Source of the DNA: a virus
Virus record (IMG/VR): IMGVR_UViG_3300021365_000085
Location: 1 to 27,000 of that record
Reading direction: 5' to 3' (one strand)
DNA: 27,000 bases
Shown here: positions 6,590 to 25,449 of the stretch, in pieces
Numbering within the stretch: position 1 is the stretch's first letter
Layout of the letters: every line of letters begins with the position of its first letter
Made by a program: the position numbers and the translations under genes
The notes under the pieces: generated by a model
Seen by the model: only the letters and a program-made list of their open reading frames with translations
Database searches by the model: none
Told to the model about the DNA's origin: nothing

Positions 6590-8239
6590 ATGCCAAACAT
6601 TATTAAAGATAAAAACGGAACACATCCTCAAGTATTTAAACGTGTTGACAGATCTGATACTAAAATAACTCCTATACAAATTAATAAATCATTTACAATG
6701 AGATCAGGTAGTACATCTGATAATCATTTAGCATTATATGCAAATTATGTTGGATCTATTCCTGAAATTAATCCTTTTACTAATGAAGCATATTTTTTTA
6801 ATTCTAATTTAGATTCAGCTTTTAGAAAAAATCCTGACAATGATTCATATGCGTTTAATATATATTATTCAATTAATCATTTATTTTATAAGTATAAAAA
6901 TGATGCATATAAAAATCATGGATTAATGACTCCGTTAGATAAATCTACAAAAATATTATACCAATCAGCATCAGTATTTAGTGTTCCTCAAACACAAATG
7001 GGATTGACAATTAAACCTGGTTCTTTTATTTATAGTGGATCGTTTAATTTACATTCTGATAAATATGAGAATATTATTGATTCTGGAATTGTTACAAGTT
7101 CATTTCCTGGCGATGAAATATTTTATGAAGGATTCAATGAATATTTTGATACAAATAGAATTACTAAATATGTAACATCTTCAAATGTTATATTTACAAA
7201 TGGAGTAACTACGTCAAATGGTGATAAAAAATCAATTGGATATTCTGCATATTTTTCTGGATCTGGATATATGGAAACTACTCAATATGATGCATATTTT
7301 GATAGAGACCATGATTATGCACTTTCTTTTTATTTATATAGTGGATCAAATACATCAACAGCAAATGAATTAATAATTGGAAAAGTAAAAAATAATGTTA
7401 GTGAACAATATCCATTTAAAATTGAATTGAGTGGAAGTAATCAATTAGTTTTTTCAATTTCTGGTAAAGAGTCTTTAAAAAATGAAATTACATCATCAGC
7501 ATTTGTATCTAGTAGTTGGACTCATGTTGTTTGTCAAAAAACTGGTAGTACTATGGAGATGTATATTAACTCTTCATTACATAATTCAATAACTTCGAAT
7601 ACATTACTTAGTTTAGAAAAACTTAATAATTTTAAAACATCATCAGCTGCTATAAATAATACAGACCCAATAAAATTTGGATCATATCAAGAAAATAATC
7701 CTTTTTTACAACAACCAAATTTCTTTCATGGTTATTTAGATGAAGTTAGAATATATAATAAAGCTTTAACTCAGGATCATATTAATTCATTAGCAGATCG
7801 TACAGAAGGAGGTACATTATTACAAACTAATCGTGTTGGTAATGCATTTCATAATAATGGATTATTTGTAGTAACTAGTCCAGATTACCGTTATGAAGAT
7901 ACATTGTCATATGCATATTCTGCTAGTTATAAAAGTACTATTAATGTATTTGAATTTGCAACGTTATGTAAGGTAGAACAAGGAGATTTTAATTTAACAA
8001 CAAATTATTCAGCATTAAAAGATGATAATCAAACATATTTAAGTCATATGACTTCTAGTACATTTGAACCATATTTAACAACTATAGGATTATATAATCA
8101 ACATGCTGAATTATTAGCAATTGGTAAATTAGCTAATCCAGTTAAAAATAGAAATAATATTGATATGAATTTTTTAGTACGTGTAGATTTAGATCAAGAT
8201 CAATTTGCAAGTACAGTAGATGATAATGAATTTGATTAA
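6590..8239 (+). CDS. Structural protein with LamG/concanavalin-like domain
   Basis: A 549-residue protein, probably displayed on the virion. Residues about 215-405 show the layout of a LamG/concanavalin A-like lectin domain: YSAYFSGSGYMETTQYDAYF at the start, a central strand SSWTHVVCQKTGSTMEMYIN, and the closing HGYLDEVRIYNKALTQDHIN, which is typical of this fold. Such domains bind carbohydrate or act as adhesion modules in phage particles. Residues about 1-215 are beta-rich with repeated SGS/YSG turns. The final 90 residues carry the same module as the preceding protein (GDFN, then LTTIGLYNQHAELLAIGKLA). The start sits six bases after a terminator T-run. No SD other than the hairpin's GGGG is visible. 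Glycan binding is inferred from fold resemblance and no specific ligand can be named. Confidence 0.8.
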   Translation: MPNIIKDKNGTHPQVFKRVDRSDTKITPIQINKSFTMRSGSTSDNHLALYANYVGSIPEINPFTNEAYFFNSNLDSAFRKNPDNDSYAFNIYYSINHLFYKYKNDAYKNHGLMTPLDKSTKILYQSASVFSVPQTQMGLTIKPGSFIYSGSFNLHSDKYENIIDSGIVTSSFPGDEIFYEGFNEYFDTNRITKYVTSSNVIFTNGVTTSNGDKKSIGYSAYFSGSGYMETTQYDAYFDRDHDYALSFYLYSGSNTSTANELIIGKVKNNVSEQYPFKIELSGSNQLVFSISGKESLKNEITSSAFVSSSWTHVVCQKTGSTMEMYINSSLHNSITSNTLLSLEKLNNFKTSSAAINNTDPIKFGSYQENNPFLQQPNFFHGYLDEVRIYNKALTQDHINSLADRTEGGTLLQTNRVGNAFHNNGLFVVTSPDYRYEDTLSYAYSASYKSTINVFEFATLCKVEQGDFNLTTNYSALKDDNQTYLSHMTSSTFEPYLTTIGLYNQHAELLAIGKLANPVKNRNNIDMNFLVRVDLDQDQFASTVDDNEFD

Positions 8240-8800: not shown

Positions 8801-9274
8801 ATGAAAAATCATTGGCATTCGAATAATAAACAACGCCAAGCAGCGTATAAATATGGATATAGATCTGGCTTAGAATTAAAAGTTGCAGATCAAATTAAAG
8901 AAGCAAAATATCCAGTTAATTATGAAACAGAAACATTAAAATATATAGTTCCACAAAAGAATTCAAAATATACACCTGATTTTATTTTTACAAAAAAAGA
9001 TGGTAATACAATGTATATTGAAACTAAGGGAAGATGGACAAGTACGGATAGACAAAAAATGAAAAATATATTAGCTTCGAATCCTGATATAGATTTAAGA
9101 ATAATATTTCAAAATCCAAATCAAAAGATATCAAAAGGATCAAAAACAACATATGAAGCATATGCTTTAAAATTAGGCATTAAACATGTTGCAAAAAAAG
9201 ATATGCCAACGGAATGGTTAGATGAGTGTTGTAAAGTAGATGAAAAGCCAAATATAGTTAAGTTTTTTGGTTAA
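8801..9274 (+). CDS. T7-type endonuclease I (Holliday-junction resolvase)
   Basis: A 157-residue protein closely resembling T7 gp3 endonuclease I (149 residues), which cleaves branched DNA such as four-way junctions. Family landmarks appear in order: YRSGLELKV (Glu25, matching T7 Glu20), KYTPDFIF (Asp60, matching Asp55) and MYIETKGRW (Glu74 and Lys76, matching Glu65 and Lys67), so all four catalytic residues are present. The following IDLRIIFQN, KGSKTTYEAYALKLGIKH and MPTEWLDE also track the T7 protein. The first 15 residues are Lys/Gln/Asn-rich. An AGGAAA ribosome binding site lies at 8789-8794. It probably resolves replication and recombination intermediates before packaging. In T4 itself this job is done by the unrelated endonuclease VII. 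Four cysteine/lysine-rich residues near the C terminus are not part of the known active site. Confidence 0.92.
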   Translation: MKNHWHSNNKQRQAAYKYGYRSGLELKVADQIKEAKYPVNYETETLKYIVPQKNSKYTPDFIFTKKDGNTMYIETKGRWTSTDRQKMKNILASNPDIDLRIIFQNPNQKISKGSKTTYEAYALKLGIKHVAKKDMPTEWLDECCKVDEKPNIVKFFG

Positions 9275-9685: not shown

Positions 9686-10411
9686 TCCCAGGATAAATTT
9701 GATAAGTTAGGTAAAATAATTGAGCGATCCAAATATAGAAATAATTCTAATGATATAAAACAAATAGACGAAGTAATACAATTGCCAGAAGATTATAAAC
9801 CATTATGGACTAATAGAAATACACCAGATTATAGAAATGCAATATATTATTTAAAAAAACGTGGTATATCAATATTTGATATAATTAGATATAGAATAGG
9901 ATATGCAGAATCAGGTCCATATTCTGGTAAAATTATTATTCCTAGTTATGATTCAGAAGGACAATTAAATTATTTTGTTTCTAGAGCTTTTTATGAACAT
10001 GATTCATATAAACATAAGAATCCAAAAGTATCAAAAGATATTATAGGATTTGATATGTTAATTAATTGGAATGAACCTATTACATTATGTGAAGGAGCAT
10101 TTGATGCAATTACTATTAAAAGAAATGCAATTCCATTATTTGGTAAACAAATTAATCCTAAACTTCGAATAAAAATTATCGAAGAAGGAGTAAAAGAAAT
10201 TTATATATGTTTAGATCAAGATGCAATAAAAAATGCAAAACATATAGCAAAAACATTTATGACTGAAGGTATAACAGTACACTTAGTTAAATTAGATAAA
10301 GATGATCCTAATGAATTAGGATATAAAAAAATTACTGAAAAAATTCATGACACGTATCAATTTTCATTTGAAGAATTGATGCAAATGGAAATAGACTCAT
10401 TATGGAAATAA
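9686..10411 (+). CDS. DNA primase catalytic (Toprim) part, downstream of in-frame TGA
   Basis: In the same frame as the preceding piece, 241 codons stay open to the TAA at 10409-10411. Together the two parts give about 315 residues, close to T4 gp61 (342). The first possible initiator is TTG at 9782 (giving 209 residues); no ATG exists between the TGA and that point. Residue numbers below count from this TTG. YLKKRGISIFDIIRYRIGYA is the DnaG N-fold motif and YSGKIIIPSYDSEGQL follows. The Toprim residues are intact: Glu104 in TLCEGAFDAIT, Asp145 and Asp147 in ICLDQDA, and a DDPNELG motif (174-180). The catalytic core therefore looks functional and would make RNA primers for lagging-strand synthesis. 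The 3' end overlaps the next gene by ten bases. Whether translation begins by readthrough, at TTG, or elsewhere cannot be told. Confidence 0.75.
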   Translation, partial: SQDKFDKLGKIIERSKYRNNSNDIKQIDEVIQLPEDYKPLWTNRNTPDYRNAIYYLKKRGISIFDIIRYRIGYAESGPYSGKIIIPSYDSEGQLNYFVSRAFYEHDSYKHKNPKVSKDIIGFDMLINWNEPITLCEGAFDAITIKRNAIPLFGKQINPKLRIKIIEEGVKEIYICLDQDAIKNAKHIAKTFMTEGITVHLVKLDKDDPNELGYKKITEKIHDTYQFSFEELMQMEIDSLWK

Positions 10412-13400
10412 AAACATTAAAAACAACAATTACATCAATTGATAAAATATTTCATATATCAGATATACATATTCGTACATTAAAACGTCACAAAGAATAT
10501 AAAGAAGTATTTGAAAATTTATTCTTACATATTACACAACATGCAACTAATCAAAGTATTTGTGTATTAACAGGAGATATAGTACATTCAAAATTAGATA
10601 TGTCTCCAGAATTAATTAACATGCTAACAAAATTCTTTAATGGATTTCATATACCTACAATTGTTATATTAGGTAATCATGATATGAATTTAAATAATTT
10701 ATATAGATTAGATGCAATATCTCCAATATTAGATGTTATTAATAATGATAATATTCATTTTATTAAAGAAAATGGATTATTTAGTTTTGCAAATGTTGTA
10801 TTCAATCATATGGCAGTAGATGTTGCTCCAAAAGATTATATTAAAGCAAAAGACTTTAATGCTCATTATAAAATAGCTTTACATCACGGAGCTGTACATA
10901 ATGCTAAAACTGATATAGGATTTCAAATTTCAAATGATCATGTTACTACTGAATTGTTTGACGGACATGATTTAACATTATTAGGCGATATACACAAACC
11001 TGCACAGTTCTTAAACAGTGAAAAAACTATTGGATATCCTGGATCATTAATACAACAAAACCATGGAGAAGCACTCGATCATGGTATATTAGTATGGGAT
11101 CTTCCAGATCGTACATCAGAATTCATAGAAATACAAAATGATTATGGATATGTTACTTTTGAAGTAGAAAACGCAAAAATTAAGAAATCTCCACATAGGG
11201 TTCCTGCTAAACCTAGAGTCAGAATTAAATTTACTGATACAGATGCATCTGACATTAAAAAATTAATAGCAACTATACGTAAAAAATATAAAGTTCAAGA
11301 CGTATCAATACAGCGTACTGCAAATCATATTGAAAGTAATAAAAATGGATCTATTGCAATAGGCAATGTTCGAGATGTAGAACATCAAAATAACTTAATA
11401 ACAAATTTTATAAATGAAAATCATCCAGATGCAAATAAAAAAGAATTAGATGCAATTAGACATATTAACAGAACTATAAATTCTAAACTACCTGTTTTAG
11501 AATCAGTTAGAAACGTAACATGGTATCCGGTATCGTTTGAATTTGATAATATGTTTTCATATGGAGAAAAAAATAAAGTAGACTTTTCTAAATTATCTGA
11601 TGTTATAGGATTATTTGCTGCAAATGCATCTGGTAAATCATCTTTATTAGATGCTATAATATATACAATATTTGATAAATGTAGTAAAACAAGTAAATCA
11701 AAAGAAGTTTTAAATAATAAAAAATCTACATTTAAAGGTATTTTTAAATTTAAGTTAAATGATAAATTATATACAATTGAAAGAGAAGGAGTAACATTAA
11801 AACATGGCCATGTCAAAGTTAATGTTAACTTTTATAACGAAGATGCAAATTTAAATGGTGAAGAAAGAAGTGATACAAATAAAAGTATAAGACGATATTT
11901 AGGAACATATGATGATTTTATTTTAACTGCATTTTCATTACAAGCTGATAATAATAATTTTATAGAAAAATCACAAAGAGAAAGAAAAGATTTATTGTCA
12001 CAATTTTTAGACACTACAGTATTTGAACAATTATATCATTTAGCATCAGAAGAAATAAAAGAAACAGCTGGAAAATTAAAAGCATATAAAAAAATAGACT
12101 TTGGTTCTATTATAAAAGAGTCTGATGATATTATTATTGAAAATCAAGATACTATAATTGAATTAGAAAAAAATGATAATGATTTACAAAATTCTAGAAA
12201 TAATGTACAAAACCAAATTGTTGAATTAATTGAATCAAAACAACCAATGTCATACGATGGACCAGATATTTCTGATTTAGAAAAAACTGAAAATCAATTA
12301 ATTGATAATATAGAAAATATAGAAACATCTATAGAAGAATTAGAAGAAAAAATTGATTTGTTAAATGATGAATCAATTGAATCAATATCTATTGAACAAT
12401 TAAATTTACAAAAAAATAAAAAAGAAATATTAAATAAAGATATAAAAATTGTAACAAAAGAGCTTACACAATTAGAACAACTAATTAAAATACAACAACA
12501 AAAAATAGATCATTTATTAACACATGAATATGATCATACTTGTAAATATTGTATTTCTAATATCTTTGTTAAAGAAGCAGAAGAAGCAAAAATAGAATTA
12601 CCAAAAAATAAAAAATTAGCAGATATTGCATTTACAAAACAATTTGACTTACAAACAAATCGTGATATAATTCAAGATACAATTTTAAAATATCAAGAAC
12701 AAATAGACTTATCTAATAAATTAGAAAAATTTGAATTACAATTACAAGTACTAGAAAGTGATTTACAAACAAAAGAATCTGAATTAGAAACAACTAATGA
12801 GCGTCAAGAATTATTTAAGAAGAATGAAACTGCTATTATTCATAATAAATCTATAGATGAAAAAATTAAAACAAAAAAGAATTTAATAACTGATATTGTA
12901 AATACTTTAAAAACTATTACTGATAAAGTTAAATCAAATCATGGTGAAATAGAAGTTGCAAAAACTAAAAAGAAAACAGCGTTAGAACAATTAGAAACAT
13001 ATAAACAATTAGAAACTGAATATAAAGCATATGAATATTATTTACAGTCTGTAAAAAGAGATGGTGTGCCATATGAGTTAATTAAAAAAGCTTTACCTAA
13101 AATAGAAACAGAAATAAATAATGTATTAGATCAAGTTGTAGATTTTAACATGGTATTAAATACAGATGGTAAAAATATTAATGGATATATTATATACGAT
13201 GAAGATAATTTTTGGCCATTAGAATTAACTTCTGGTATGGAACGATTTATGAGTTCATTAGCAATCAGAGTAGCTTTAATTAATGTTTCAGCATTACCTA
13301 GACCTAATTTTATTGCTATAGACGAAGGATGGGGTAGTTTAGATAGAGAACACATATCGTCAGTAACAAATTTATTTGAATATTTTAGATCAAAGTTTGA

Positions 13401-13503
13401 TTTTTCAATTATTATATCTCACGTAGAATCTATGCGTGATATGGTAGACAATTTAATAGAAGTAAATAAAATAGAAAATTTCAGCCAGATTATACATACG
13501 TAA
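10402..13503 (+). CDS. Fused SbcD-SbcC (T4 gp47-gp46 type) recombination nuclease/ATPase
   Basis: A single 1033-residue chain carries both subunits of the Mre11-Rad50 class complex, which processes DNA ends for recombination-dependent replication. The N-terminal 250 residues are the Mre11/SbcD phosphoesterase: SDIHI (Asp21, His23), GDIVH (58-62), GNHD (91-94), LHHG (160-163) and GDIH (195-198). From about residue 375 the Rad50/SbcC ATPase begins: Walker A ANASGKSS (407-414), a long coiled coil (about 530-900) with a CKYC zinc hook at 714-717, a signature ELTSGMERF (941-949), Walker B FIAIDEG (970-976), a D-loop Asp981 and H-loop His1007. Every key motif is present, so the protein should be active. 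In T4 these are genes 47 and 46. Residues 250-375 form the capping/linker region. The ATG lies inside the last codons of the primase gene, indicating translational coupling. Confidence 0.93.
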   Translation: MEIKTLKTTITSIDKIFHISDIHIRTLKRHKEYKEVFENLFLHITQHATNQSICVLTGDIVHSKLDMSPELINMLTKFFNGFHIPTIVILGNHDMNLNNLYRLDAISPILDVINNDNIHFIKENGLFSFANVVFNHMAVDVAPKDYIKAKDFNAHYKIALHHGAVHNAKTDIGFQISNDHVTTELFDGHDLTLLGDIHKPAQFLNSEKTIGYPGSLIQQNHGEALDHGILVWDLPDRTSEFIEIQNDYGYVTFEVENAKIKKSPHRVPAKPRVRIKFTDTDASDIKKLIATIRKKYKVQDVSIQRTANHIESNKNGSIAIGNVRDVEHQNNLITNFINENHPDANKKELDAIRHINRTINSKLPVLESVRNVTWYPVSFEFDNMFSYGEKNKVDFSKLSDVIGLFAANASGKSSLLDAIIYTIFDKCSKTSKSKEVLNNKKSTFKGIFKFKLNDKLYTIEREGVTLKHGHVKVNVNFYNEDANLNGEERSDTNKSIRRYLGTYDDFILTAFSLQADNNNFIEKSQRERKDLLSQFLDTTVFEQLYHLASEEIKETAGKLKAYKKIDFGSIIKESDDIIIENQDTIIELEKNDNDLQNSRNNVQNQIVELIESKQPMSYDGPDISDLEKTENQLIDNIENIETSIEELEEKIDLLNDESIESISIEQLNLQKNKKEILNKDIKIVTKELTQLEQLIKIQQQKIDHLLTHEYDHTCKYCISNIFVKEAEEAKIELPKNKKLADIAFTKQFDLQTNRDIIQDTILKYQEQIDLSNKLEKFELQLQVLESDLQTKESELETTNERQELFKKNETAIIHNKSIDEKIKTKKNLITDIVNTLKTITDKVKSNHGEIEVAKTKKKTALEQLETYKQLETEYKAYEYYLQSVKRDGVPYELIKKALPKIETEINNVLDQVVDFNMVLNTDGKNINGYIIYDEDNFWPLELTSGMERFMSSLAIRVALINVSALPRPNFIAIDEGWGSLDREHISSVTNLFEYFRSKFDFSIIISHVESMRDMVDNLIEVNKIENFSQIIHT

Positions 13504-13533: not shown

Positions 13534-16500
13534 ATGGCAAAAAAACGCAAATTAAATAATCCAGATTTACGTAACAAAACATTATTTTTTAATGATACAT
13601 CAAACACATCTCCTGATGTATTCAGAATAACTGATTTTCCTTTACGATTTACAGCAGGTAAAAACTTAATCAAGTTACAAGGAAATTCTGCAAATTTAAA
13701 ACCTGGTTCTATTTTACAAATAGAAATTACTGATTCTAATAATGATCCTATATATAATGAAATATTAAATTATTTAGAAGATGATGGGTCTAGAGTAATA
13801 GCAGTTTATATATATCCTGACACTCCAGAAGGAGATTGTATAGTAACATTAGGTACTGAATTAACAGAATTAAACGGAAGAATTGTACCAACACAATTTC
13901 AAAATAAAATTAATACAATATGGTCAGAAACTATACCAGTTTCTCCAACAGCTGTTAATGAAAGTGAAGTTATATTCACATCAGAACCTGTAATTACATT
14001 AGACGAACAAATTGCTGTACAACTAGATAGAAGTTTTTCTGGAAGTTTACAAACTACTACATATGATATTGGTACTGTACAATATATTAACAGAAATGAT
14101 GATTCAAACATATTATTAACTGGAGGAAAATTTAGTTCAGATATGAAGGATGGAACATTAACTGTTACCAATCCAATCAATCCATTACCAGTACCTAACT
14201 TTTCATTAAATACGACTCCAATATATACTTCAAAAATAAAAAAAGTATTAAATGATACTACTTTAACGTTAGAAAGTCCATTTATATTTTTAACAAGTCA
14301 AAGTTTATCCCAACAAAAATATACACAATTTGATAATTCCACATATTCAATCGAATATAATGTTACACCTACATTTAATGCAACACAAAATTCACAATCA
14401 TTTGCTTTAATGCAAATAAAAAACTTATCACCTGACACTGGTGATATTAGTAGAATAAAATTATATGGTAGTAATAATGGATCTATTGGAGATTATGAAT
14501 TATTAAATGATATTGATTTAACTCCTACTGAAATTTTTGTAGACGCAACAGGTTCAATATTACCAGATGTATCAATTGGATTTTTTACATCACAAAGTAT
14601 AATTAATGAATATTGGGAAAGTAAAACGTTTTTAAATAATATTGAAACTACAGGTCCTACAATGACTTGGTCGACTAGTTCATTAAATAATGCAATGCTT
14701 ATTAGTAGTGCAACTGATATATCCAAATATAATGATGTACATATTATAAAATCAAAAGATTCAATACAAGGAGTATTTGTAGAAAATTCTCAATACAAAA
14801 TACAATTTGATGCAATTGGAACACAATTAATACCAGGCCAAGATTCTAAAATATCAATATATTTATCTGGATCTTCTTTTAACTTTGATGGTAGTGATAT
14901 TCTTAATCAAGAACTTCCAATTAATTTAGGTAAAAAAATTGGTGAAGTAAAAACTACCGCTACAAATCAAAGATATGATGATGTTAATTTTACATTTATG
15001 GCAGATAAAGATGGATTAGGATCTATTTTATTTGTAATTGAAAATGGACAATGGCAACTATCAGAAGTTCAAACACTTTCAGATTCAGAGTTTGGTTTTA
15101 CTGAAAATTATACTAGACTAAGAACTTTAATTCCAGTAGAACATAAAAGTGATAATCAAATATCATTTAAATTAGAATATTATAATACTGCTGGAAATAA
15201 AAGTAAAACCATAAGTTATGTTAATAATAAAACATTTGAAGGCGGTAATAGATATATAGACGGTGCATTTTCTTTATTAACTGGTTCATTATTTGTAGCT
15301 GACTCATTAGATTCTGGAATTGATATATCAGGATTACAAGGTACTGGATTTATTAGATCATTGCCATATGCTGGATTTAATCAAGCAACTGGATCTGGAC
15401 CAGCTGGATTTCTAATTTATTCTGGTTCTGCACTACCAAATCAAACAGAAACATCTTATGGCGGAGTTGGATTAGAATTAGTAGCAGATGAAAATAACTT
15501 TTTTAGATTTAGAACTAGTGGATCTAACGGACAAGGTGAATTAGATATACGTACTGAAAAAATTGTAATGAGTGGTAGTGAAGTTTCAATAAACACTCCA
15601 ACATTCTTTTTAGGTGAAGCAGCTACTCAATTTATAAGCGGAGCCAATGGACAACTAGAAATATCTTCTTCAGGATATCATATACAACCTAGTGGCGACA
15701 TAACAGCATCAAAAATATTAATTGAAGGTGGTACTATTACTGACGATGTAACTATATTAGGTTCTGTATCAGCTAATAGTATATTAACACCGGCAACAAT
15801 TGGAGGATCTCCAGCAACAGCAGCAAATGCGTCATCATCTATATCTGATCAGGGTTTAGCTATATTTAAATCTGCATCTATAGGTGGATTTGTTGTTAGC
15901 TCAGAAGAAATTAGATCTGCAGATCAAGAACTTAGATTAAAAGCTGGAGGACAAATAACAGCATCAAGAGTTTTATTAGAAGGTGGTACTATAACAGACG
16001 GAGTTACTATACTAGGGGCTGTAACTGCAAATAGTATTCGAACTCCAGCAACAATTGCTGGATCTCCATCTACTGACTCAAATGCATCATCATCTATATC
16101 TGCAACTGGATTAGCAATATTTAAATCCGCATCCATAGCTGGATTTGTTGTTAATGAAAACGAAATTAGATCAGCTGATAGTAGTTTAAGATTAAAAGCA
16201 ACTGGTCAAGTTACTGCATCAACATTACAATTAATTGATGGCAATTTTGATGGACAATCAGTAGGAAAAATTTCTGGTAGTGCATTAGTAATGGAAGTAC
16301 CAACATTCTTTTTTGGATCAACTGCACAATTTGTATCTGGATCAGATGGAAATATTGAAATTTCTTCTTCTAATTTTCATTTATCATCTTCTGGCGATGT
16401 TAAACTATCTGGTAATGTAACAGCAACTTCTGGAGATATTGGTGGATTTGAAATTAATAATAATAGTATCTCTTCTACTAATAATAATTTAATATTATCT

Positions 16501-19500
16501 TCATCTGGTCAAATTACTGGTTCTACCGTTTTATTTACTGGTGGAGATATTGCTGGATTCAATATTAATACAGTTGGTATTAAATCTTCAAATAGTAATT
16601 TAATATTATCAGCTTCAGGCCAGATAACAGCTTCAAACGCACAAATAACTGGAGATATTACCGCAAATACAATTACAGCAAATACTGCCGGCACCATTGC
16701 AAACTTCAATATAGACTCAGTTGGTATTAAATCAGCAAATAGTAAATTAATATTATCTGCATCTGGTCAAATTACTGGTTCTAATTTTTTAATGGCAGGT
16801 GGACGTATAACAGACGGAGTTACTATTGAAGGCACCGTTTCTGCAAATAGTATATTAGTACCAGCTGATCTAGATGCTACGGAAGCTTCTGCATCTATAT
16901 CTTCAGAAGGATTAGCTATATTTAGGTCAGCATCTATTGCCGGATTTAATATAAATCCTATAGCAATTGCTAGTGCAGATAAAAGTTTAATTCTTTCTGC
17001 ATCTGGACAAATTACCGCATCTGATGCAAAAATAACTGGAGATATTGTAGCAAATACTATTACAGCTAATACAGCTGGTACTATTGCTAGTTTTAATATT
17101 GACTCGGTTGGAATAAAAAGTTCTAATAGCAAACTAATATTATCAGCTTCTGGAAATATGACTGCGTCAAATGCTAAAATAACTGGTGACATTACTGCAA
17201 ATACCATTACTGCAAATACAGCTGGAACAATAGCAGGATTTACTATTAACTCGGTTGGTATTAAATCTTCTAATAGTAAATTAATCATGAGCGCTTCGGG
17301 GCAAATAACTGGATCTAACGTATTATTAGATGGCGGGGAAATAGGTGGGTTCACCTTGTCTGCAGATGAGGTTAAATCTTCTAATAACAATCTAAGATTA
17401 AAAGACTCTGGCCAGATAACTGGTAGTGATGTTTTATTCGATGGAGGAGATATTGCTGGATTCAATATTAATACAGTTGGTATTAAATCTTCAAATAGTA
17501 AATTAATTCTTTCTGCATCTGGAAATATAACGGCATCTAATGCAAATATTACCGGTGACATAGTAGCAAATACTATTACCGCAAATACTGCTGGTACCAT
17601 AGCAGGGTTTAATATAAATTCAGTTGGTATTAAATCATCAAATAGCAACTTAATTCTTTCCGCATCAGGTAATATGACTGCGTCAAATGCTCAAATTACA
17701 GGAAAAATTGTAGCAGAAGAAGGTACTATAGGGGGATTCAATATTGGAGATGACTTAGACTCATCTGCAGGAACTCTTAAATTAAAAGGAGCATCTGGCC
17801 AGATAACTGCGTCAGCAGCACAGATAACTGGTAAAATTGTAGCTGAAGAAGGCACAATTGGCGGCTTTAATATTGGATCAGACTTAGACTCATCAGCTGG
17901 TACTCTTAAATTAAAAGGCGAATCAGGCCAAATAACAGCATCCGCAGCTCAAATAACTGGTAAAATAACGGCTCAAGAAGGTACTATAGGAGGATTCAAT
18001 ATTGGAACGAATCTAGAATCATCTGGTGGCACGTTAAATTTAAAAGGTTCTACCGGACAAATTACTGGTTCTAAGGTATTATTAGATGGAGGAGAAATAG
18101 CTGGATTTGATATTAATACAATTGGGATATCATCTGAAAATAAAAATTTAATTCTATCTGCATCTGGCCAGATAACATCATCTACTGTATTATTTGACGG
18201 AGGTACTATTGCTGGATTTGATATTGACACTATAGGAATATCATCAGCAAATAAACAATTAATATTGTCAGCGTCAGGACAAATAACAGGATCTAATTTT
18301 TTAATGGCTGGAGGTCGTATAACAGATAGTGTTACTATTGAAGGCACCGTTTCTGCAAATAGCATATTAGTTCCGGCAGGACTAGATGCGACTGCAGCGT
18401 CTGCTTCTATATCTTCAGAAGGTTTAGCAATATTTAGATCAGCATCTATTGCTGGATTTGTTGTTAATGAAGATGAAATTAGATCTGCAAATTCTAGTTT
18501 AAGATTAAAATCAAATGGTCAAATTACAGGATCAGACGTATTATTTGATGGTGGAACTATAGGAGGATTTACTTTAAGTAGCAACACATTAGCAGCAACA
18601 AATTTTGAATTAAATCCTAGTGGAAAACGAATAACATTAGGCTCTGGCAATGATATTTTTATTGCAGACGGAGACGAAGGAATACAATTAGGTAATTCTA
18701 CATTTAATAGTGCTCCATTTAGTGTTACAAAAGCTGGAGCACTAAAGGCTATTTCTGGAGAAGTTGGAGGCTTTACATTATCATCTAATACAATTTCAGG
18801 AACAAATATTATAATAGATTCAGCTGGAAGTATACAGACATCAGATTATGTATCTGATTTGAAAGGATGGAAAATATCTGCTGATGATAATGGATTTGCA
18901 GAATTTGAAAATGCAAAAATTAGAGGTACATTATCAACTGCAGTATTTGAAAAAGAAACTGTTAATGCTGTAGGAGGACAATTATATGTAGCAAATTCCA
19001 CAACATTAACTTCATCTGTATCACATTCGAGTGCAAATTATTTACCTACCGATAGTACAATGTCTGTAGTTAATGCTAGCGGATTTTCTATAGGAGAAAT
19101 ATTATCTTTAAAGAAAGTTACTAGCACTGGATTTGGTACTGAATATATATTTGTTCAATCATCATCTAGAAACGATTCAAGTAGTGATAGCGATCTTTCT
19201 GGAAATTTATTTGTATTAAGAGGATATTCTGGATCTTTAGGATCTGATTCATCATTTGCAAGTGCTTCATTAGGAGATTCTCCAGGAGCTGCACAATCTT
19301 ATTCTGGATCTCAAGTATTAGTATCAACTGGTAAAGTTGGAACTGGGTTTATAAGATTAAATGCAAATCCTAATAATCAAGCAACGCCATATATTGATAT
19401 TGTTGAAAGAACAGGATCAGCAATTTTTGATGTATCATTAAAAGCTAGGCTTGGTGACTTATCTGGATTAGCTGGATCTTCATTAGTATTTGGAAATACA

Positions 19501-22500
19501 GATCCTGGATTTGGTTTAGCAACTGACAATGTATATCTGCAAGGTGGTATAACAGCAACATTTGGTCAAATTGGAGGATTTGCTATAACATCAACCGCAA
19601 TATCATCATCTAATAATAGTTTAATATTAAGAGGAGACTCAGGTCAAATAACAGGCTCTAAAATTTTACTAGACGGTGGCAAAATTGCAGGCTTTGATAT
19701 TAATTCAGTAGGAATAAAAAGCTCGAATAGTAAATTAATATTATCAGCTTCTGGTAACATAACTGCATCTAATGCAAATATTACTGGTGATATAGTAGCA
19801 AATACAATAACTGCAAACACAGCTGGAACAATAGCAGGCTTTACTATTAATTCAGTTGGTATTAAATCTTCTAATAGCAACTTAATTCTTTCTGCATCAG
19901 GAAATATGACAGCTTCAAATGCACAGATAACTGGTAAAATTGTAGCAGAGTCTGGAACGATAGGCGGCTTTAATATTGGAGATGATTTAGATTCAGCGGC
20001 CGGCACATTAAAATTAAAAGGAGCGTCTGGTCAGATAACTGCGTCAGCAGCACAGATAACTGGTAAAATAACGGCTCAAGAAGGTACTATAGGAGGATTC
20101 AATATTGGTACAAATTTAGAATCATCTGGAGGCACTTTAAACTTAAAAGGAGCAACAGGTCAGATAACTGGTTCTAAAGTTTTACTAGATGGCGGAGAAA
20201 TAGCTGGTTTTGATATCAATACAATTGGGATATCATCTGCTGATAAAAGTTTAATTCTATCTGCATCAGGACAAATTACAGCATCCGCAGCTCAAATTAC
20301 CGGAGATATTGTAGCAAATACAATTACAGCAAATACTGCTGGTACTATCGCCGGCTTTAATATAAATTCTGTTGGTATTAAATCCTCTGATAGCAACTTG
20401 ATATTATCTGCATCAGGTCAAATAACTGGTAGTGATGTTTTATTTGACGGTGGAACTATAGGCGGATTTACTATTACGTCTGATAAAATAAAGTCAGGTA
20501 CAAATATAAGATTAGATGCTGCAAATAAAAAATTTATAATAAATGATAATACATTTGGAAATACTGGTATACAACTAGAATATAATTCTGGAACACCTAG
20601 AGCACATATTGGAACAGAAAATGCTGAAAGAATAACATTTGACGGATCTAATTTAATTATGAGTGCCTCTACATTTGTGTTAGGAAGTCCAACTCAATTT
20701 GTATCTGGAGCAAATGGAAATATAGAAATTTCATCATCAAATTTCCATCTAGATAATACCGGCAATGTTAATATGTCTGGAACTGTTACTTCTACCGCTG
20801 GTAATATTGGTGGATTTAATATTAACTCCGTAGGAATAAAATCATCAAATAGCAACTTAATATTATCAGCATCAGGACAAATTACAGCATCTGATGCTAA
20901 TATTACAGGCGATATAGTAGCAAATACAATTACAGCAAATACTGCAGGGACAATAGCAAACTTTAATATAAATTCAGTTGGCATCAAATCATCTAATAGC
21001 AACTTGATATTATCAGCATCAGGTAATATTACAGCATCTAATGCAAAAATTACTGGAGATATTGTAGCAAATACTATTACAGCAGACACTGCTGGTACTA
21101 TCGCCGGCTTTAATATAAATTCTGTTGGTATTAAATCTTCAAATAGTAATTTAATATTATCAGCATCAGGTAATTTAACAGCATCTAATGCCCAAATTAC
21201 CGGAAAAATTGTAGCTGAAGAAGGCACAATTGGTGGCTTTAATATTGGAGATGATTTAGATTCTTCAGCTGGTACTCTTAAATTAAAAGGAGCGTCTGGA
21301 CAAATAACAGCATCCGCAGCTCAAATTACCGGAGATATTGTAGCAAATACAATTACAGCAAATACAGCCGGTACTATAGGTGGATTTAATATTAACTCTG
21401 TAGGAATTAAATCATCAAATAGCAACTTAATTCTTTCTGCATCTGGCAATATGACCGCATCTAATGCTCAAATATCTGGAAAAATAACGGCAACCGATGG
21501 AGCTATTGGTGGATTTACTATAGGTAGCACATCTTTGATTGCAGGTAGCAACACAACTAGAGTATCTTTAAGTACAGCAGATGGTATACATTTAGGAAAT
21601 AATACATTTGGTTCAGCACCATTTAGAGTTACAAGAGCAGGAGCCGTAACCGCAACTAATGCTACGGTAACAGGTGATATAGTAGCAAATACAATAACTG
21701 CAAACACAACAGGAACAATAGCAAATTTTAATATAAATTCAGTAGGAATAAAAAGTGCAAATAGTAATTTAATATTATCCGCATCAGGAAATATGACAGC
21801 TTCAAATGCACAGATTACCGGAAAAATTGTAGCAGAGTCTGGAACTATAGGTGGCTTTAATATTGGATCGGACTTAGATGCTGCATCAGGTACTCTTAAA
21901 TTAAAAGGCGCATCAGGACAGCTAACTGCGTCAGCAGCACAGATAACTGGTAAAATAACATCAAACGAAGGAACAATTGGTGGATGGACAATAGGTTCAA
22001 CTTTATCTGCAACCAATATATTATTAGACCCATCAACACCAAAAATAACATTAGGCTCAAAATCAACATTAACAGATTCGAACTCCGGGTTATACATGGG
22101 AACAGACGGACTTGCTCTAGGAGCATCTTCTGTATTCAAAGTAACAAATGCCGGCGTATTAACTGCAACAAATGCAAATATAACTGGTGATATTACTGCA
22201 AATGCTGGTAATATTGGCGGATTTACTATTACCAGCAATGCTATAGCAAGTTCTGATGGTAATCTTGTTTTATCTGGATCAGGTAGAATTACTGCAAGTG
22301 CAGGTATAATTGGCGGATTTGAATTATCTACTAATAAATTTGAAGGAACGCCAGAAATAATTTCAGTTGTAAGTCAATCCGTAACAAATACAGCTGTTAG
22401 TTGTTCAATTCTAGAGCTGAATACTGCACCAACCACCGGTGTATTAAATGTTTCAATAGATTATTTTTCAAGCGCACAAGAAACTAACGATGCAACAGGA

Positions 22501-25449
22501 GATAAAAATTCTGGATTATTAGATGTTGATTTCTGGGATGGATTAGCTCAAGCTGGTAACTTATATGTATATGCAACTGAAGCAGGAGAAGGATTTGGTT
22601 CACCTATTAATTTATTTAACGAAGTCGACACCGAAGGTAATCCCTTTGCCGCTGTTTCAGTCGCAAAAGTTGGAAATTTTGGAACTCCGTCTGTCAAGTT
22701 CTTTTCATTAGATGGTTTTCAGGTTGGAACTGCTAGTTTTGGTGGGGATCTTCATTTTATAAATGAGGAAGATTATTCAGACGCAGGTAGTATTACTTTT
22801 GTATCTGGAGCAAATCAAACTACAACATTTAATTCAGAAAAACAATCAATATTATTAAACTCTTTAGAAAAATCATTGTCAATAGCAACTGGTAGTTTTG
22901 GAGACACTGGAATACAATTACAATACAATGATGGTAATCCTAAATTCTTTGTAGGAACTGATACTGGTAGTCATTTTAAATATGATAGCAATATAGTATC
23001 AATTTCATCTTCAAACTTCACAGTTACTCCTGCAGGAGAAGTTGAAGCTAAACAAATAGAATTAACAGATTATGCAAAAGCTGATTATTTTGTATTTAAA
23101 TTATTAAAAATAAATGTTGCTAATTCTGGTTCATTCTTTGAACAATATACAGCAGGTGGAAAAAATTATACTAAATTAGTATTAGATGGATCTTTAGGTG
23201 GATCAATAGCACAGTCTGTTAGAATTGAATGTGTTCCTAATAATCCAATTGGTATGATACAACCACCAGTTAAATCAAATAGTCAAGGACATGAAGTTAC
23301 TATAGAATGTGCTACTACTGCAGTAGGATATGCAGCTCTAGTCGCAGTTAGTGGTAGTAATTCATATGCATATGGATTTTATGGAGATTCAGATGATTGG
23401 TTTTATCAATTATTTCAAACAAGAGTTTATCCCGCTGGAGGAAGTGTTACATATGGCGGCGGAAGTGTTGGAGATATAGGAGCATCGTCTGGAAGAATAA
23501 TGGTACAAAACTCTGGCCAGCGTTTTAGATTTGTTAGATCAGCATATGATTTTAGATTGTTAGGAGTATCAAGTTATGATACAACCGCTGCTGGAAACTT
23601 TAATTCTCAAGGTTTAGTTAATTTTCATTCTGGATTAAAAACTACATCTGGACCTATTGCTATAGGTAAAGGAGCTACTGAAAAAGCGACTGCAGGATAT
23701 GCGTTTGAAGTTGATGCTATTACAGACAGAAATGGAACAACTACAGATGATTCATATTTCCACGGAAATATTACAGTTGCTGGTACAATTAAAGATTCAT
23801 CTGGAGATGCAGGATCTTCTGGTCAAATATTATCTTCTACCGGAACAGGAACAAATTGGATAGCTAATTCTGGTGGTGGATCTGGAGATATTGAAGGCGT
23901 TACTGCAGGAAATGGATTAACTGGTGGTGGTACATCTGGAACAGTTACTTTAAATGTTGGAGCTGGTACTGGTATTGATGTTGCAGCTGATGCTATATCA
24001 GTTGATGTATCTGATTTTATGACTAACGGATCCAATAATAGAGTAGTCACTGCTACCGGTACTGATGCAATGAATGCGGAAGCAAACATGACATTTGATG
24101 GTACTAATTTATTAGTTAGTGATGATTCAAATGCATATGCAAATATTGGTAGAACAAGAGTTGGTTATGCAACTTATAGTGATTATGGATATGTTTCACA
24201 TAGAGATATGACAGGTGCAGGACAATATGCATTATTACAATCTGCTGCGGGAGATACATTTATAAATGCTGCAACTGGTAAAACTCTTCATTTACGAATA
24301 AATAATTCATCTATAGCTAGCATAACCGCAGCTGGATTAAATATGTCCTCAGGTTTTATTTTAGACGGAAATACTATAACTGGTGTAGATGATTCAGGTG
24401 AATTTACAAATGACGATGCTCATATCATGACATCGGCCGGAGTTGAAGATAAAATATTAGGTTATAGTTATACAGCAAATGCATTGCCTTTAGCTGGTGG
24501 AACTATGTCTGGTGCAATTGCGATGGGTAATCAGAACATAACTGGTATTAATAATCTTACTATAAATGACCCTGGCCCAAACGAAGGAATAAATTGGAAT
24601 GGTGGTAACACAAAAATATTTGAATCACCAGATAATTTAACAACAAACTCTGCAGGTAACTTACAATTTGTATATGGTTCAACTCGAAGATTAACAGTTA
24701 ATAGTACTGGTATAGATGTAAATGGTAATATAACAGCATCTGGTGATATAAGTTCAAGTGCTACAATTACAGCTAATAAGTTTAAATTAAATGAATCTGG
24801 TACCACAACACTTACTGAAGTACCTAGCAACGGTACTGTTGAAGTAAATACTGGAAATGGATATGTAAGAATAGGACCTGCAAATTCTGGTTTTGCTCAT
24901 TTTAGTACAAATAAAACTCAATATTATTTTAATAAAAAGATTGTAGTCGACGAAGGTATTATTGGATCATATGACGAAGATTTATCATTAAGAAGAGTAT
25001 ATAGTAGTGCTAATGATAGTATTCTTATAAGAGCTACTAGTATAGGATTTTTCTTAGATGGCGCTGAAGATATGCGTTTAGAAAATGATGGTGATTTACA
25101 TGCTGAAGGAGATGTCATAGCATCATCAACTACTATATCTGATTCTAGATTAAAAGATAATATAATTCAAATTGGTGGAGCGTTAGACAAAATAAAATCT
25201 TTAAGAGGAGTTTCATATACATGGAATGCTGGCAAGAAAAAGGGTAAACAAGATATAGGTTTAATAGCACAAGAAGTAGAGGAAGTATTACCAGAAATAG
25301 TTAAAGATAAAAAAATGCCATTAATGGATGGAATAGATCCAAATGAAACATATAAAACTATTGATTACGAAAAAATTATTGCAGTTCTTGTAGAAGCAGT
25401 TAAAGATCAACAAACACAAATTGATGAATTAAAAAGAAAAATTAAATAG
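13534..25449 (+). CDS. Giant repetitive tail fibre with C-terminal peptidase S74 chaperone domain
   Basis: A 3971-residue protein, presumably the long trimeric host-binding fibre. Residues 1-690 are beta-rich unique sequence, probably the attachment end. Residues about 690-2930 are an array of roughly 38 units built on Gly-x-Ile-(Ala/Gly)-Gly-(Phe/Trp), followed by patterns such as NINSVGIKSSNSNLILSASG or NIGDDLDSSAGTLKLKG. A different module interrupts the array at about residues 1690-2005. Residues 2930-3450 are less repetitive. AGNGLTGGGTSGTVTLNV (from about 3458) is a tail-fibre shaft motif. The end (3868-3971) is an intramolecular chaperone: SDSRLKDN (Ser3869, Lys3874), GLIAQEVEEVLPEIV and a terminal coiled coil. 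S74 domains help the fibre trimerise and then cut themselves off just before the Ser. This is the only gene here ending in TAG. Host receptor specificity cannot be predicted. Confidence 0.9.
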   Translation: MAKKRKLNNPDLRNKTLFFNDTSNTSPDVFRITDFPLRFTAGKNLIKLQGNSANLKPGSILQIEITDSNNDPIYNEILNYLEDDGSRVIAVYIYPDTPEGDCIVTLGTELTELNGRIVPTQFQNKINTIWSETIPVSPTAVNESEVIFTSEPVITLDEQIAVQLDRSFSGSLQTTTYDIGTVQYINRNDDSNILLTGGKFSSDMKDGTLTVTNPINPLPVPNFSLNTTPIYTSKIKKVLNDTTLTLESPFIFLTSQSLSQQKYTQFDNSTYSIEYNVTPTFNATQNSQSFALMQIKNLSPDTGDISRIKLYGSNNGSIGDYELLNDIDLTPTEIFVDATGSILPDVSIGFFTSQSIINEYWESKTFLNNIETTGPTMTWSTSSLNNAMLISSATDISKYNDVHIIKSKDSIQGVFVENSQYKIQFDAIGTQLIPGQDSKISIYLSGSSFNFDGSDILNQELPINLGKKIGEVKTTATNQRYDDVNFTFMADKDGLGSILFVIENGQWQLSEVQTLSDSEFGFTENYTRLRTLIPVEHKSDNQISFKLEYYNTAGNKSKTISYVNNKTFEGGNRYIDGAFSLLTGSLFVADSLDSGIDISGLQGTGFIRSLPYAGFNQATGSGPAGFLIYSGSALPNQTETSYGGVGLELVADENNFFRFRTSGSNGQGELDIRTEKIVMSGSEVSINTPTFFLGEAATQFISGANGQLEISSSGYHIQPSGDITASKILIEGGTITDDVTILGSVSANSILTPATIGGSPATAANASSSISDQGLAIFKSASIGGFVVSSEEIRSADQELRLKAGGQITASRVLLEGGTITDGVTILGAVTANSIRTPATIAGSPSTDSNASSSISATGLAIFKSASIAGFVVNENEIRSADSSLRLKATGQVTASTLQLIDGNFDGQSVGKISGSALVMEVPTFFFGSTAQFVSGSDGNIEISSSNFHLSSSGDVKLSGNVTATSGDIGGFEINNNSISSTNNNLILSSSGQITGSTVLFTGGDIAGFNINTVGIKSSNSNLILSASGQITASNAQITGDITANTITANTAGTIANFNIDSVGIKSANSKLILSASGQITGSNFLMAGGRITDGVTIEGTVSANSILVPADLDATEASASISSEGLAIFRSASIAGFNINPIAIASADKSLILSASGQITASDAKITGDIVANTITANTAGTIASFNIDSVGIKSSNSKLILSASGNMTASNAKITGDITANTITANTAGTIAGFTINSVGIKSSNSKLIMSASGQITGSNVLLDGGEIGGFTLSADEVKSSNNNLRLKDSGQITGSDVLFDGGDIAGFNINTVGIKSSNSKLILSASGNITASNANITGDIVANTITANTAGTIAGFNINSVGIKSSNSNLILSASGNMTASNAQITGKIVAEEGTIGGFNIGDDLDSSAGTLKLKGASGQITASAAQITGKIVAEEGTIGGFNIGSDLDSSAGTLKLKGESGQITASAAQITGKITAQEGTIGGFNIGTNLESSGGTLNLKGSTGQITGSKVLLDGGEIAGFDINTIGISSENKNLILSASGQITSSTVLFDGGTIAGFDIDTIGISSANKQLILSASGQITGSNFLMAGGRITDSVTIEGTVSANSILVPAGLDATAASASISSEGLAIFRSASIAGFVVNEDEIRSANSSLRLKSNGQITGSDVLFDGGTIGGFTLSSNTLAATNFELNPSGKRITLGSGNDIFIADGDEGIQLGNSTFNSAPFSVTKAGALKAISGEVGGFTLSSNTISGTNIIIDSAGSIQTSDYVSDLKGWKISADDNGFAEFENAKIRGTLSTAVFEKETVNAVGGQLYVANSTTLTSSVSHSSANYLPTDSTMSVVNASGFSIGEILSLKKVTSTGFGTEYIFVQSSSRNDSSSDSDLSGNLFVLRGYSGSLGSDSSFASASLGDSPGAAQSYSGSQVLVSTGKVGTGFIRLNANPNNQATPYIDIVERTGSAIFDVSLKARLGDLSGLAGSSLVFGNTDPGFGLATDNVYLQGGITATFGQIGGFAITSTAISSSNNSLILRGDSGQITGSKILLDGGKIAGFDINSVGIKSSNSKLILSASGNITASNANITGDIVANTITANTAGTIAGFTINSVGIKSSNSNLILSASGNMTASNAQITGKIVAESGTIGGFNIGDDLDSAAGTLKLKGASGQITASAAQITGKITAQEGTIGGFNIGTNLESSGGTLNLKGATGQITGSKVLLDGGEIAGFDINTIGISSADKSLILSASGQITASAAQITGDIVANTITANTAGTIAGFNINSVGIKSSDSNLILSASGQITGSDVLFDGGTIGGFTITSDKIKSGTNIRLDAANKKFIINDNTFGNTGIQLEYNSGTPRAHIGTENAERITFDGSNLIMSASTFVLGSPTQFVSGANGNIEISSSNFHLDNTGNVNMSGTVTSTAGNIGGFNINSVGIKSSNSNLILSASGQITASDANITGDIVANTITANTAGTIANFNINSVGIKSSNSNLILSASGNITASNAKITGDIVANTITADTAGTIAGFNINSVGIKSSNSNLILSASGNLTASNAQITGKIVAEEGTIGGFNIGDDLDSSAGTLKLKGASGQITASAAQITGDIVANTITANTAGTIGGFNINSVGIKSSNSNLILSASGNMTASNAQISGKITATDGAIGGFTIGSTSLIAGSNTTRVSLSTADGIHLGNNTFGSAPFRVTRAGAVTATNATVTGDIVANTITANTTGTIANFNINSVGIKSANSNLILSASGNMTASNAQITGKIVAESGTIGGFNIGSDLDAASGTLKLKGASGQLTASAAQITGKITSNEGTIGGWTIGSTLSATNILLDPSTPKITLGSKSTLTDSNSGLYMGTDGLALGASSVFKVTNAGVLTATNANITGDITANAGNIGGFTITSNAIASSDGNLVLSGSGRITASAGIIGGFELSTNKFEGTPEIISVVSQSVTNTAVSCSILELNTAPTTGVLNVSIDYFSSAQETNDATGDKNSGLLDVDFWDGLAQAGNLYVYATEAGEGFGSPINLFNEVDTEGNPFAAVSVAKVGNFGTPSVKFFSLDGFQVGTASFGGDLHFINEEDYSDAGSITFVSGANQTTTFNSEKQSILLNSLEKSLSIATGSFGDTGIQLQYNDGNPKFFVGTDTGSHFKYDSNIVSISSSNFTVTPAGEVEAKQIELTDYAKADYFVFKLLKINVANSGSFFEQYTAGGKNYTKLVLDGSLGGSIAQSVRIECVPNNPIGMIQPPVKSNSQGHEVTIECATTAVGYAALVAVSGSNSYAYGFYGDSDDWFYQLFQTRVYPAGGSVTYGGGSVGDIGASSGRIMVQNSGQRFRFVRSAYDFRLLGVSSYDTTAAGNFNSQGLVNFHSGLKTTSGPIAIGKGATEKATAGYAFEVDAITDRNGTTTDDSYFHGNITVAGTIKDSSGDAGSSGQILSSTGTGTNWIANSGGGSGDIEGVTAGNGLTGGGTSGTVTLNVGAGTGIDVAADAISVDVSDFMTNGSNNRVVTATGTDAMNAEANMTFDGTNLLVSDDSNAYANIGRTRVGYATYSDYGYVSHRDMTGAGQYALLQSAAGDTFINAATGKTLHLRINNSSIASITAAGLNMSSGFILDGNTITGVDDSGEFTNDDAHIMTSAGVEDKILGYSYTANALPLAGGTMSGAIAMGNQNITGINNLTINDPGPNEGINWNGGNTKIFESPDNLTTNSAGNLQFVYGSTRRLTVNSTGIDVNGNITASGDISSSATITANKFKLNESGTTTLTEVPSNGTVEVNTGNGYVRIGPANSGFAHFSTNKTQYYFNKKIVVDEGIIGSYDEDLSLRRVYSSANDSILIRATSIGFFLDGAEDMRLENDGDLHAEGDVIASSTTISDSRLKDNIIQIGGALDKIKSLRGVSYTWNAGKKKGKQDIGLIAQEVEEVLPEIVKDKKMPLMDGIDPNETYKTIDYEKIIAVLVEAVKDQQTQIDELKRKIK
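17476..18121 (+). repeat. Longer copy of an internal segmental duplication in the fibre gene
   Basis: This segment and 19708-20224 encode the same series of units in the same order, from VGIKSSNSKLILSASGNITA to GGEIAGFDINTIGISS. This copy is 645 nt between matching codons and the other is 516 nt. The difference is 129 nt, exactly one 43-codon unit: this copy has three consecutive GTIGGFNIG units and the other has two. Confidence 0.75.
19708..20224 (+). repeat. Shorter copy of the internal segmental duplication
   Basis: Partner of 17476-18121 with one 43-codon unit fewer. The frame is preserved and the encoded residues are nearly the same apart from scattered changes (for example GFTIN for GFNIN, and AES for AEE). 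Synonymous differences are frequent, so the duplication is not recent or has been diversified by exchange. Confidence 0.75.

Follow-up and report, generated by a model that had tools for sequence, protein, structure and literature searches.

Positions 1 to 27,000 of the IMG/VR virus record IMGVR_UViG_3300021365_000085 (hereafter, the window, a stretch of 27,000 bases) include a giant open reading frame (ORF) for a fibre protein, much of which is taken up by a tandem array of units whose protein sequence is kept and whose synonymous codons are scrambled. It is probable that these are old fibre units that have evolved by birth-and-death and by short in-register recombination, with the scrambled codons being mainly a by-product of age and not a device. 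Indeed, near-saturated synonymous divergence (dS), low ratios of nonsynonymous to synonymous divergence (dN/dS) and gain or loss of units between relatives were all found, as birth-and-death evolution under purifying selection would have it. Judged from its sequence, the array is predicted to form the shaft of a phage tail fibre of great length, with a self-assembly chaperone at its end.

Scanning the fibre ORF with the pattern [IV][AGSN][GSN][FW] revealed 39 IxGF-type anchors, 38 of which (u0-u37, starting from 15880 to 22309) lie within the array region. As such, the count of about 38 fibre units at 15605-22350 given in a first-pass annotation of this DNA holds, as do the coordinates, with the start at 15605 including a partial leading unit. 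For pairwise statistics, 36-codon cores were taken from 30 of the 39 anchor units, giving 435 pairs (u17, 18, 19, 26, 32, 35, 36, 37 and 38 were left out). Across all 435 pairs, protein identity is 0.559 and DNA identity 0.610, with the proportions of differing synonymous (pS) and nonsynonymous (pN) sites being 0.612 and 0.319, respectively. Protein identity reaches 0.85 or more in 46 of the pairs; in these, it averages 0.900, as compared to a DNA identity of 0.795, and codons for the same residue are identical in only 0.533 of cases. The claim of conserved protein with shuffled synonymous codons is accordingly borne out, and the equality of DNA and protein identity that the first-pass annotation had named as speaking against it is not seen. 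Over all pairs, same-residue codon identity is 0.483, as compared to 0.458 +/- 0.012 for independent draws from array codon usage, so that silent sites are close to saturated, with only a little likeness remaining. When codons are permuted among same-residue positions of a column, the value is 0.482; since the procedure nearly fixes this mean by design, it was dropped as a measure of overall codon likeness and served as a control for exact runs only.

Codon likeness does not decay with distance along the array (rho -0.05, p 0.27), on which ground local tandem duplication was rejected as the source of the units. Nor does the array appear recently expanded, as DNA identity between units in the window reaches at most 0.89 over 93 nucleotides (nt) and adjacent units are not the closest. 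To place the array among others, the best 80 of 125 related stretches found by a unit-alignment search of viral contigs, corresponding to 67 loci, were considered; five or more motif units were counted in 44 ORFs of the fetched loci, 24 of these ORFs being distinct. The combination of features had been described as unusual, yet it is the usual state of this unit family, given that 23 of the 24 distinct arrays contain no pair with DNA identity above 0.91 over 93 nt. The near-random state of silent sites recurs in L135 (24 units), where codon identity is 0.437, as compared to 0.427 expected from the usage of its own array. In a 292,723-base viral contig (L167), two units are identical over 93 nt, the sole recent copy among the 24 distinct arrays.

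Selection on the units was addressed within subfamilies, where dN/dS is 0.073 (13 units), 0.062 (5), 0.118 (3), 0.013 (2) and 0.050 (eight tails). Between orthologous units, the values are 0.066 (23 units, related contig L001) and 0.113 (17 units, related contig L004). At the same time, dS is ~1.0-1.5 between units, as compared to 0.07-0.23 between orthologous units. The proposal of long-term selection on the protein is thus upheld, with dN/dS in subfamilies of 3-13 units (0.062-0.118) being near the orthologue value at near-saturated dS, and the proposed erosion of DNA likeness is correct if age is what is meant. The protein of each unit has been held by strong purifying selection as silent sites between units neared saturation. 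Such constraint may arise because units pack together in a trimeric, beta-rich fibre, with every unit fitting one lattice, whereupon the gain, loss or swapping of units would alter fibre length and the modules carried.

Comparison with related phages shows arrays to differ through in-register joins over short stretches of identity (from a few bases to a few tens), through an old duplication of a block and through the exchange or replacement of blocks. For L001 u0-u23, the same-numbered window unit is the best DNA match in 24 of 24 cases (0.89-1.00 over 93 nt; paralogues reach no more than 0.88), and the window order is repeated over u0-u23 in L001 and u0-u22 in L002, both from other metagenomes. 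In the closest arrays, positional orthologues are nearly identical. Many positional pairs also group in a tree of the units, in which 28 of 57 inner branches are open (93 columns, long branches) and unit numbers are shifted by the looser anchor used. Concerted evolution, in which units within a genome should be closer to each other than to positional orthologues, was rejected on the strength of the 24 L001 comparisons. L001 u24 is an in-register hybrid that corresponds to window u24, passes through a 23-nt identical junction and then corresponds to window u27, with u25-u26 being skipped. Five window segments suffice to compose L001, with 23, 9, 5 and 2 nt of identity at the junctions; for L004, nine window segments are required, with junctions of 0-11 nt.

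Between the window and L001, dS is 0.070 in the array, 0.311 in the SbcDC-like gene preceding the fibre ORF and 0.51-0.67 in the N-terminal region of the fibre, from which it follows that the array was passed from lineage to lineage as one block. The differences between window and L001 orthologues are clustered, with 41 of 81 falling in u4, u9 and u10 (chi-square 135, 22 degrees of freedom). In L006, L014 and L050, the fibres of which are 93-98% identical to that of the window in the N-terminal region, DNA identity of 94-95% extends to about residue 868, with another module following directly after unit 0. More generally, 77 ORFs with a window-type N-terminus were found (in overlapping loci, and including three fragments of the window itself). 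Thirty-four of these ORFs are closed; at least six motif units are present in five, one to three in four and none in 25.

Exact DNA runs within the array tell of exchange between units. Runs of at least 20 nt are shared by 39 pairs, as compared to 12.7 when codons are permuted within column and residue, and runs of at least 30 nt by nine pairs, as compared to 0.4. Beyond the nine longer runs, codon agreement is 74/165 (0.45), equal to background; the runs thus stand out as islands, a pattern to be expected of short-tract conversion or recombination. Similarly, outside the 56-nt tract, same-residue codons of u3 and u9 agree in 3 of 17 cases. The assertion that identical DNA runs are short therefore stands in that the longest is only 59 nt, but runs are more numerous than permutation allows. 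An excess was also seen elsewhere, with 36 pairs sharing at least 20 nt in L129 (15.2 expected) and 17 in L130 (4.6 expected). An old block duplication relates u9-u14 to u20-u24: codon identity in the five matched pairs is 0.616, as compared to 0.496 in other same-family pairs, a value reached by five random pairs in 36 of 10000 sets, with the block having been picked after viewing the data.

Codon usage in the array was compared to that of the other window genes for 12 codons by Fisher tests, uncorrected. Enrichment was seen for ACC (22/189 in the array vs 6/337 in other genes, p 2.8e-6), CAG (13/43 vs 10/167, p 5.2e-5), GAC (24/80 vs 38/272, p 0.0023) and, weakly, GGC (39/246 vs 24/257, p 0.031), with that of GCC not being significant (9/200 vs 4/245, p 0.092). 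The reported excess of GCC, ACC and GGC is hence confirmed for ACC and weakly for GGC, but not for GCC. Relative to the rest of the fibre ORF, GGC (p 0.0014), CAG (p 0.0011) and GAC (p 0.014) differ significantly and ACC does not (p 0.11). The array uses C-ending fourfold codons more often than other genes do in the window, L001, L004, L111 and L045, equally often in L116, and less often in L113, L117 and L118 (L114 offers no other genes for this comparison). Codon agreement between units was also predicted from flanking genes in the 22 of 24 distinct arrays with at least 500 flanking codons; it exceeds the prediction in 18 arrays and falls below it in four (the window, L001, L004 and L045). 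In the window, agreement is 0.487, as compared to a predicted 0.523 +/- 0.010 (z -3.5, with codons treated as independent), and in L001, L004 and L045, all of the window's clade, z is -0.7 to -1.1. In an earlier subset of 15 of the 24 distinct arrays, 13 of 14 were above the flank expectation. In 18 of the 22, the array has a lower G+C content at third codon positions (GC3) than other genes have; in the window, L001, L004 and L045, it has a higher one. Given this division of 18 and four arrays, the rarer codons characterize the window's clade, and perhaps reflect the origin of its array, but do not characterize such arrays generally. A weak codon deficit thus exists in that clade.

Such a deficit, together with the enrichment of the rarer codons ACC, CAG, GAC and GGC, is what could be expected were selection to hold the codons of different units apart and thereby guard units against deletion by recombination. 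This is nonetheless very unlikely. The four arrays below expectation belong to one clade and so are not independent, and the other 18 lie above. Moreover, near units are not more different in their codons, long exact runs are in excess and relatives are joined in register, as in the L001 u24 hybrid, such that the avoidance of recombination suggested by the first-pass annotation finds little support. A more plausible, albeit lesser, possibility is that the array arrived as a block from phages of other codon usage, with the rarer codons being the trace of this event. The raised GC3 of the array in the window, L001, L004 and L045, set beside a lowered GC3 in the other 18 arrays, is consistent with such an origin, as is an array dS to L001 lower than that of the flanks, but part of the shift also extends to the remainder of the ORF and the composition could follow from amino-acid context; block arrival also leaves the saturation between units unexplained. 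Finally, arrays of identical copies might break or collapse in short-read assembly, such that only diverged ones are seen. Contigs L001, L002, L003, L004 and L005 do stop within the array or at its edge, yet the shared unit order of the window, L001 and L002 was recovered from different metagenomes and the identical pair in L167 demonstrates that recent copies can be assembled. A survivor effect is thus improbable, and would be a partial cause.

Several observations weigh against old units shaped by birth-and-death and short in-register recombination. Over all 30 cores, dN/dS is ~0.33 (by arithmetic from pN 0.319 and pS 0.612), meaning that subtypes diverged faster than did orthologues; with dS near saturation, dN/dS ratios are rough, and the L004 unit pairs were chosen by best match, which lowers their divergence. 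The rarer codons and the sub-flank codon agreement of the window belong here as well. The excess of exact runs is weak in L135 (six pairs of at least 20 nt, as compared to 3.0) and absent in L134 and L144. In the reverse direction, composing the window takes 12 segments when L001 is the source and 20 when L004 is, with many junctions at 0-5 nt of identity and some segments only 0.53-0.80 identical, under a jump penalty that was the analyst's choice; many segments are needed because u25-u26 have no near counterpart in L001 or L004. No second contig shows the window order of u24-u31, and the nearest kin, L005, agrees with the window (99.96% over 2685 nt) but stops in u1. As for structure, a unit profile found nothing at E <= 1 among solved structures, and an AlphaFold monomer model from a 22-row alignment (predicted local distance difference test score, pLDDT, 64; predicted template modelling score, pTM, 0.38) is too poor for a fold search.

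The layout of the fibre ORF and the segments discussed above are listed in Table 1.

Table 1. Position, strand and basis of the fibre ORF, its parts and the repeated or recombined segments within the array.
Feature	Position	Strand	Basis or relation
Giant fibre ORF, 3971 amino acids (aa)	13534..25449	+	Single open frame
N-terminal region	13534..15604	+	blastp against fetched loci; homologues 28-100% aa in related phages
Repeat array	15605..22308	+	Anchor scan and codon columns; anchors u0-u36 start 15880-22213, u37 at 22309
56-nt exact tract	16543..16598	+	Shared with 17446-17501 (u2/u3 and u8/u9)
Block u9-u14	17452..18207	+	Old block duplication relation to u20-u24
u18, 269-aa non-repeat module within array	18763..19569	+	99.6% aa to L001; 54-97% in other phages' fibres
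Block u20-u24	19684..20346	+	Counterpart of u9-u14
u24	20200..20346	+	Head matches head of L001 u24
59-nt exact tract, longest in array	20278..20336	+	Shared with 21307-21365 (u24/u30)
u27	20806..20952	+	Tail matches tail of L001 u24
Peptidase_S74 (chaperone of endosialidase)	25138..25305 (residues 3869-3924)	+	Pfam PF13884, E 3.8e-17

At the C-terminus, the fibre ORF passes the PF13884 gathering score (62.8 bits vs 22), and it matches phrog_33119, 'long tail fiber protein distal subunit'. Unit spacings in the window are 37/38, 43 and 49 aa, nine each (one spacing of 38 was counted with those of 37), with longer units between. Of the 98 spacings no longer than 62 residues in 22 other arrays, 81 equal 37, 43 or 49, a count that excludes the window, dropped as a near-copy by protein, and that includes homologous, hence non-independent, units. 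The six-residue steps of this ladder suggest a beta lattice. Units fall into subtypes, with heads of NINSVG, NIGDDL, NIGTNL or DINTIG and tail types that set the length of 37, 43 or 49 aa, and the order of subtypes along the shaft is common to related phages. The u18 module is also found in the fibres of other phages at different positions (54-99.6% identity), with two copies in L030/L031.

Examination of the region before the fibre ORF revealed the genes immediately upstream to be DNA genes. The ORF at 10402-13503 is predicted to encode an SbcD/Mre11-like phosphoesterase (Metallophos, residues 15-200) fused with an SbcC/Rad50-like ATPase, for which the SMC_N score of 19.4 bits lies below the cut-off of 40. 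This SbcDC-like gene has 469 relatives in viral contigs, 80 of which were kept, and in loci retrieved by way of this gene, homologues of the fibre N-terminus, present in many viral contigs, adjoin it. A phage endonuclease I (PF05367, E 2.8e-34) is predicted near the fibre gene at 8801-9274, and a Laminin_G_3 (concanavalin-like) domain with a weak baseplate-wedge PHROG match (E 1.7e-6) at 6590-8239. Homologues of 709-4434 were found in six phage records.

Among annotated phages, no match was found for the window DNA, nor for the array at E 1e-5; one array match at E 4e-8, in a gut phage, involved a different stretch. The N-terminus matches two annotated phage records, the best being Microcystis phage Mel-JY01 (28.9%). 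Bacterial genomes yielded eight weak loci, included in the pool scanned for arrays and spacings. Unit stretches gave weak PHROG matches (best 5.2e-5), mostly of unknown function, and a single-sequence search of solved structures gave three weak matches. KAsynt_C_assoc, the best of 16 Pfam families (E 0.00056, 17 of 22 stretches), was judged a chance match, scoring 12.4 bits in the first member of the stretches, as compared to a cut-off of 33. Among the literature matches listed, no paper on codon-scrambled phage fibre repeats was apparent by title or the start of the abstract.

The array is an ordinary object, a phage fibre built of repeats, caught in a clean and well-resolved evolutionary state. 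Among viruses, it offers an example of conserved repeats that have near-saturated silent sites and yet allow orthologues, paralogues and recombinants to be distinguished. As such, it could serve as a test bed for the minimum homology that phage recombination uses to alter fibre length and for whether a period of relaxed selection is always part of the history of repeat units. There is a warning here too, in that codon-scrambled repeats alone are no evidence of selection against recombination.

Units of the array bear a weak likeness to the central fibre of the lambda tail tip protein J (PF09327 Phage_Tail_Tip, best E 0.02 in two of 22 stretches; phmmer to 8xcj, E 0.16; tblastn to J proteins, E 2-5). 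Membership in this family was rejected, as the whole protein shows no PF09327 at E <= 0.1 and scores 9.3 bits for NCBIfam TipJ, as compared to 1950. Closer in layout are phage tail fibres and spikes that end in Peptidase_S74, in which, as here, a long repeat region is followed by a C-terminal chaperone domain. The window ORF differs in length and unit number, and its autocleavage and trimer formation are putative.

The closest precedent for the evolution of the array is provided by polyubiquitin genes, in which (PMC10457151, citing Nei et al., 2000) the protein of tandem units is conserved as silent sites diverge, unit number varies, units exchange, and birth-and-death and concerted evolution have been disputed. 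By contrast, the window array is not concerted, with positional orthologues being far closer than paralogues, and its units are subtypes in a shared order and not one identical unit. For protein repeats generally, Persi, Wolf and Koonin (2016; PMC5120217) describe, as in the window, conservation of each unit between orthologues. The ratio of unit to orthologue dN/dS in the window is ~1 within subfamilies and ~3-5 over all units, with no effect of distance on codons. The course described by Persi et al. is absent within subtypes, but the founding of subtypes may itself have followed it, given the dN/dS over all cores. It may tentatively be proposed, though this is rather doubtful, that a phage-wide fibre-shaft unit departs from the protein-repeat rule, with frozen subtypes, a paralogue dN/dS equal to that of orthologues, order set by descent and length changed through short-identity recombination. 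If so, the array would be a natural record of short-homology recombination, with unit lengths (37, 43 and 49 aa) quantised by the fibre lattice.

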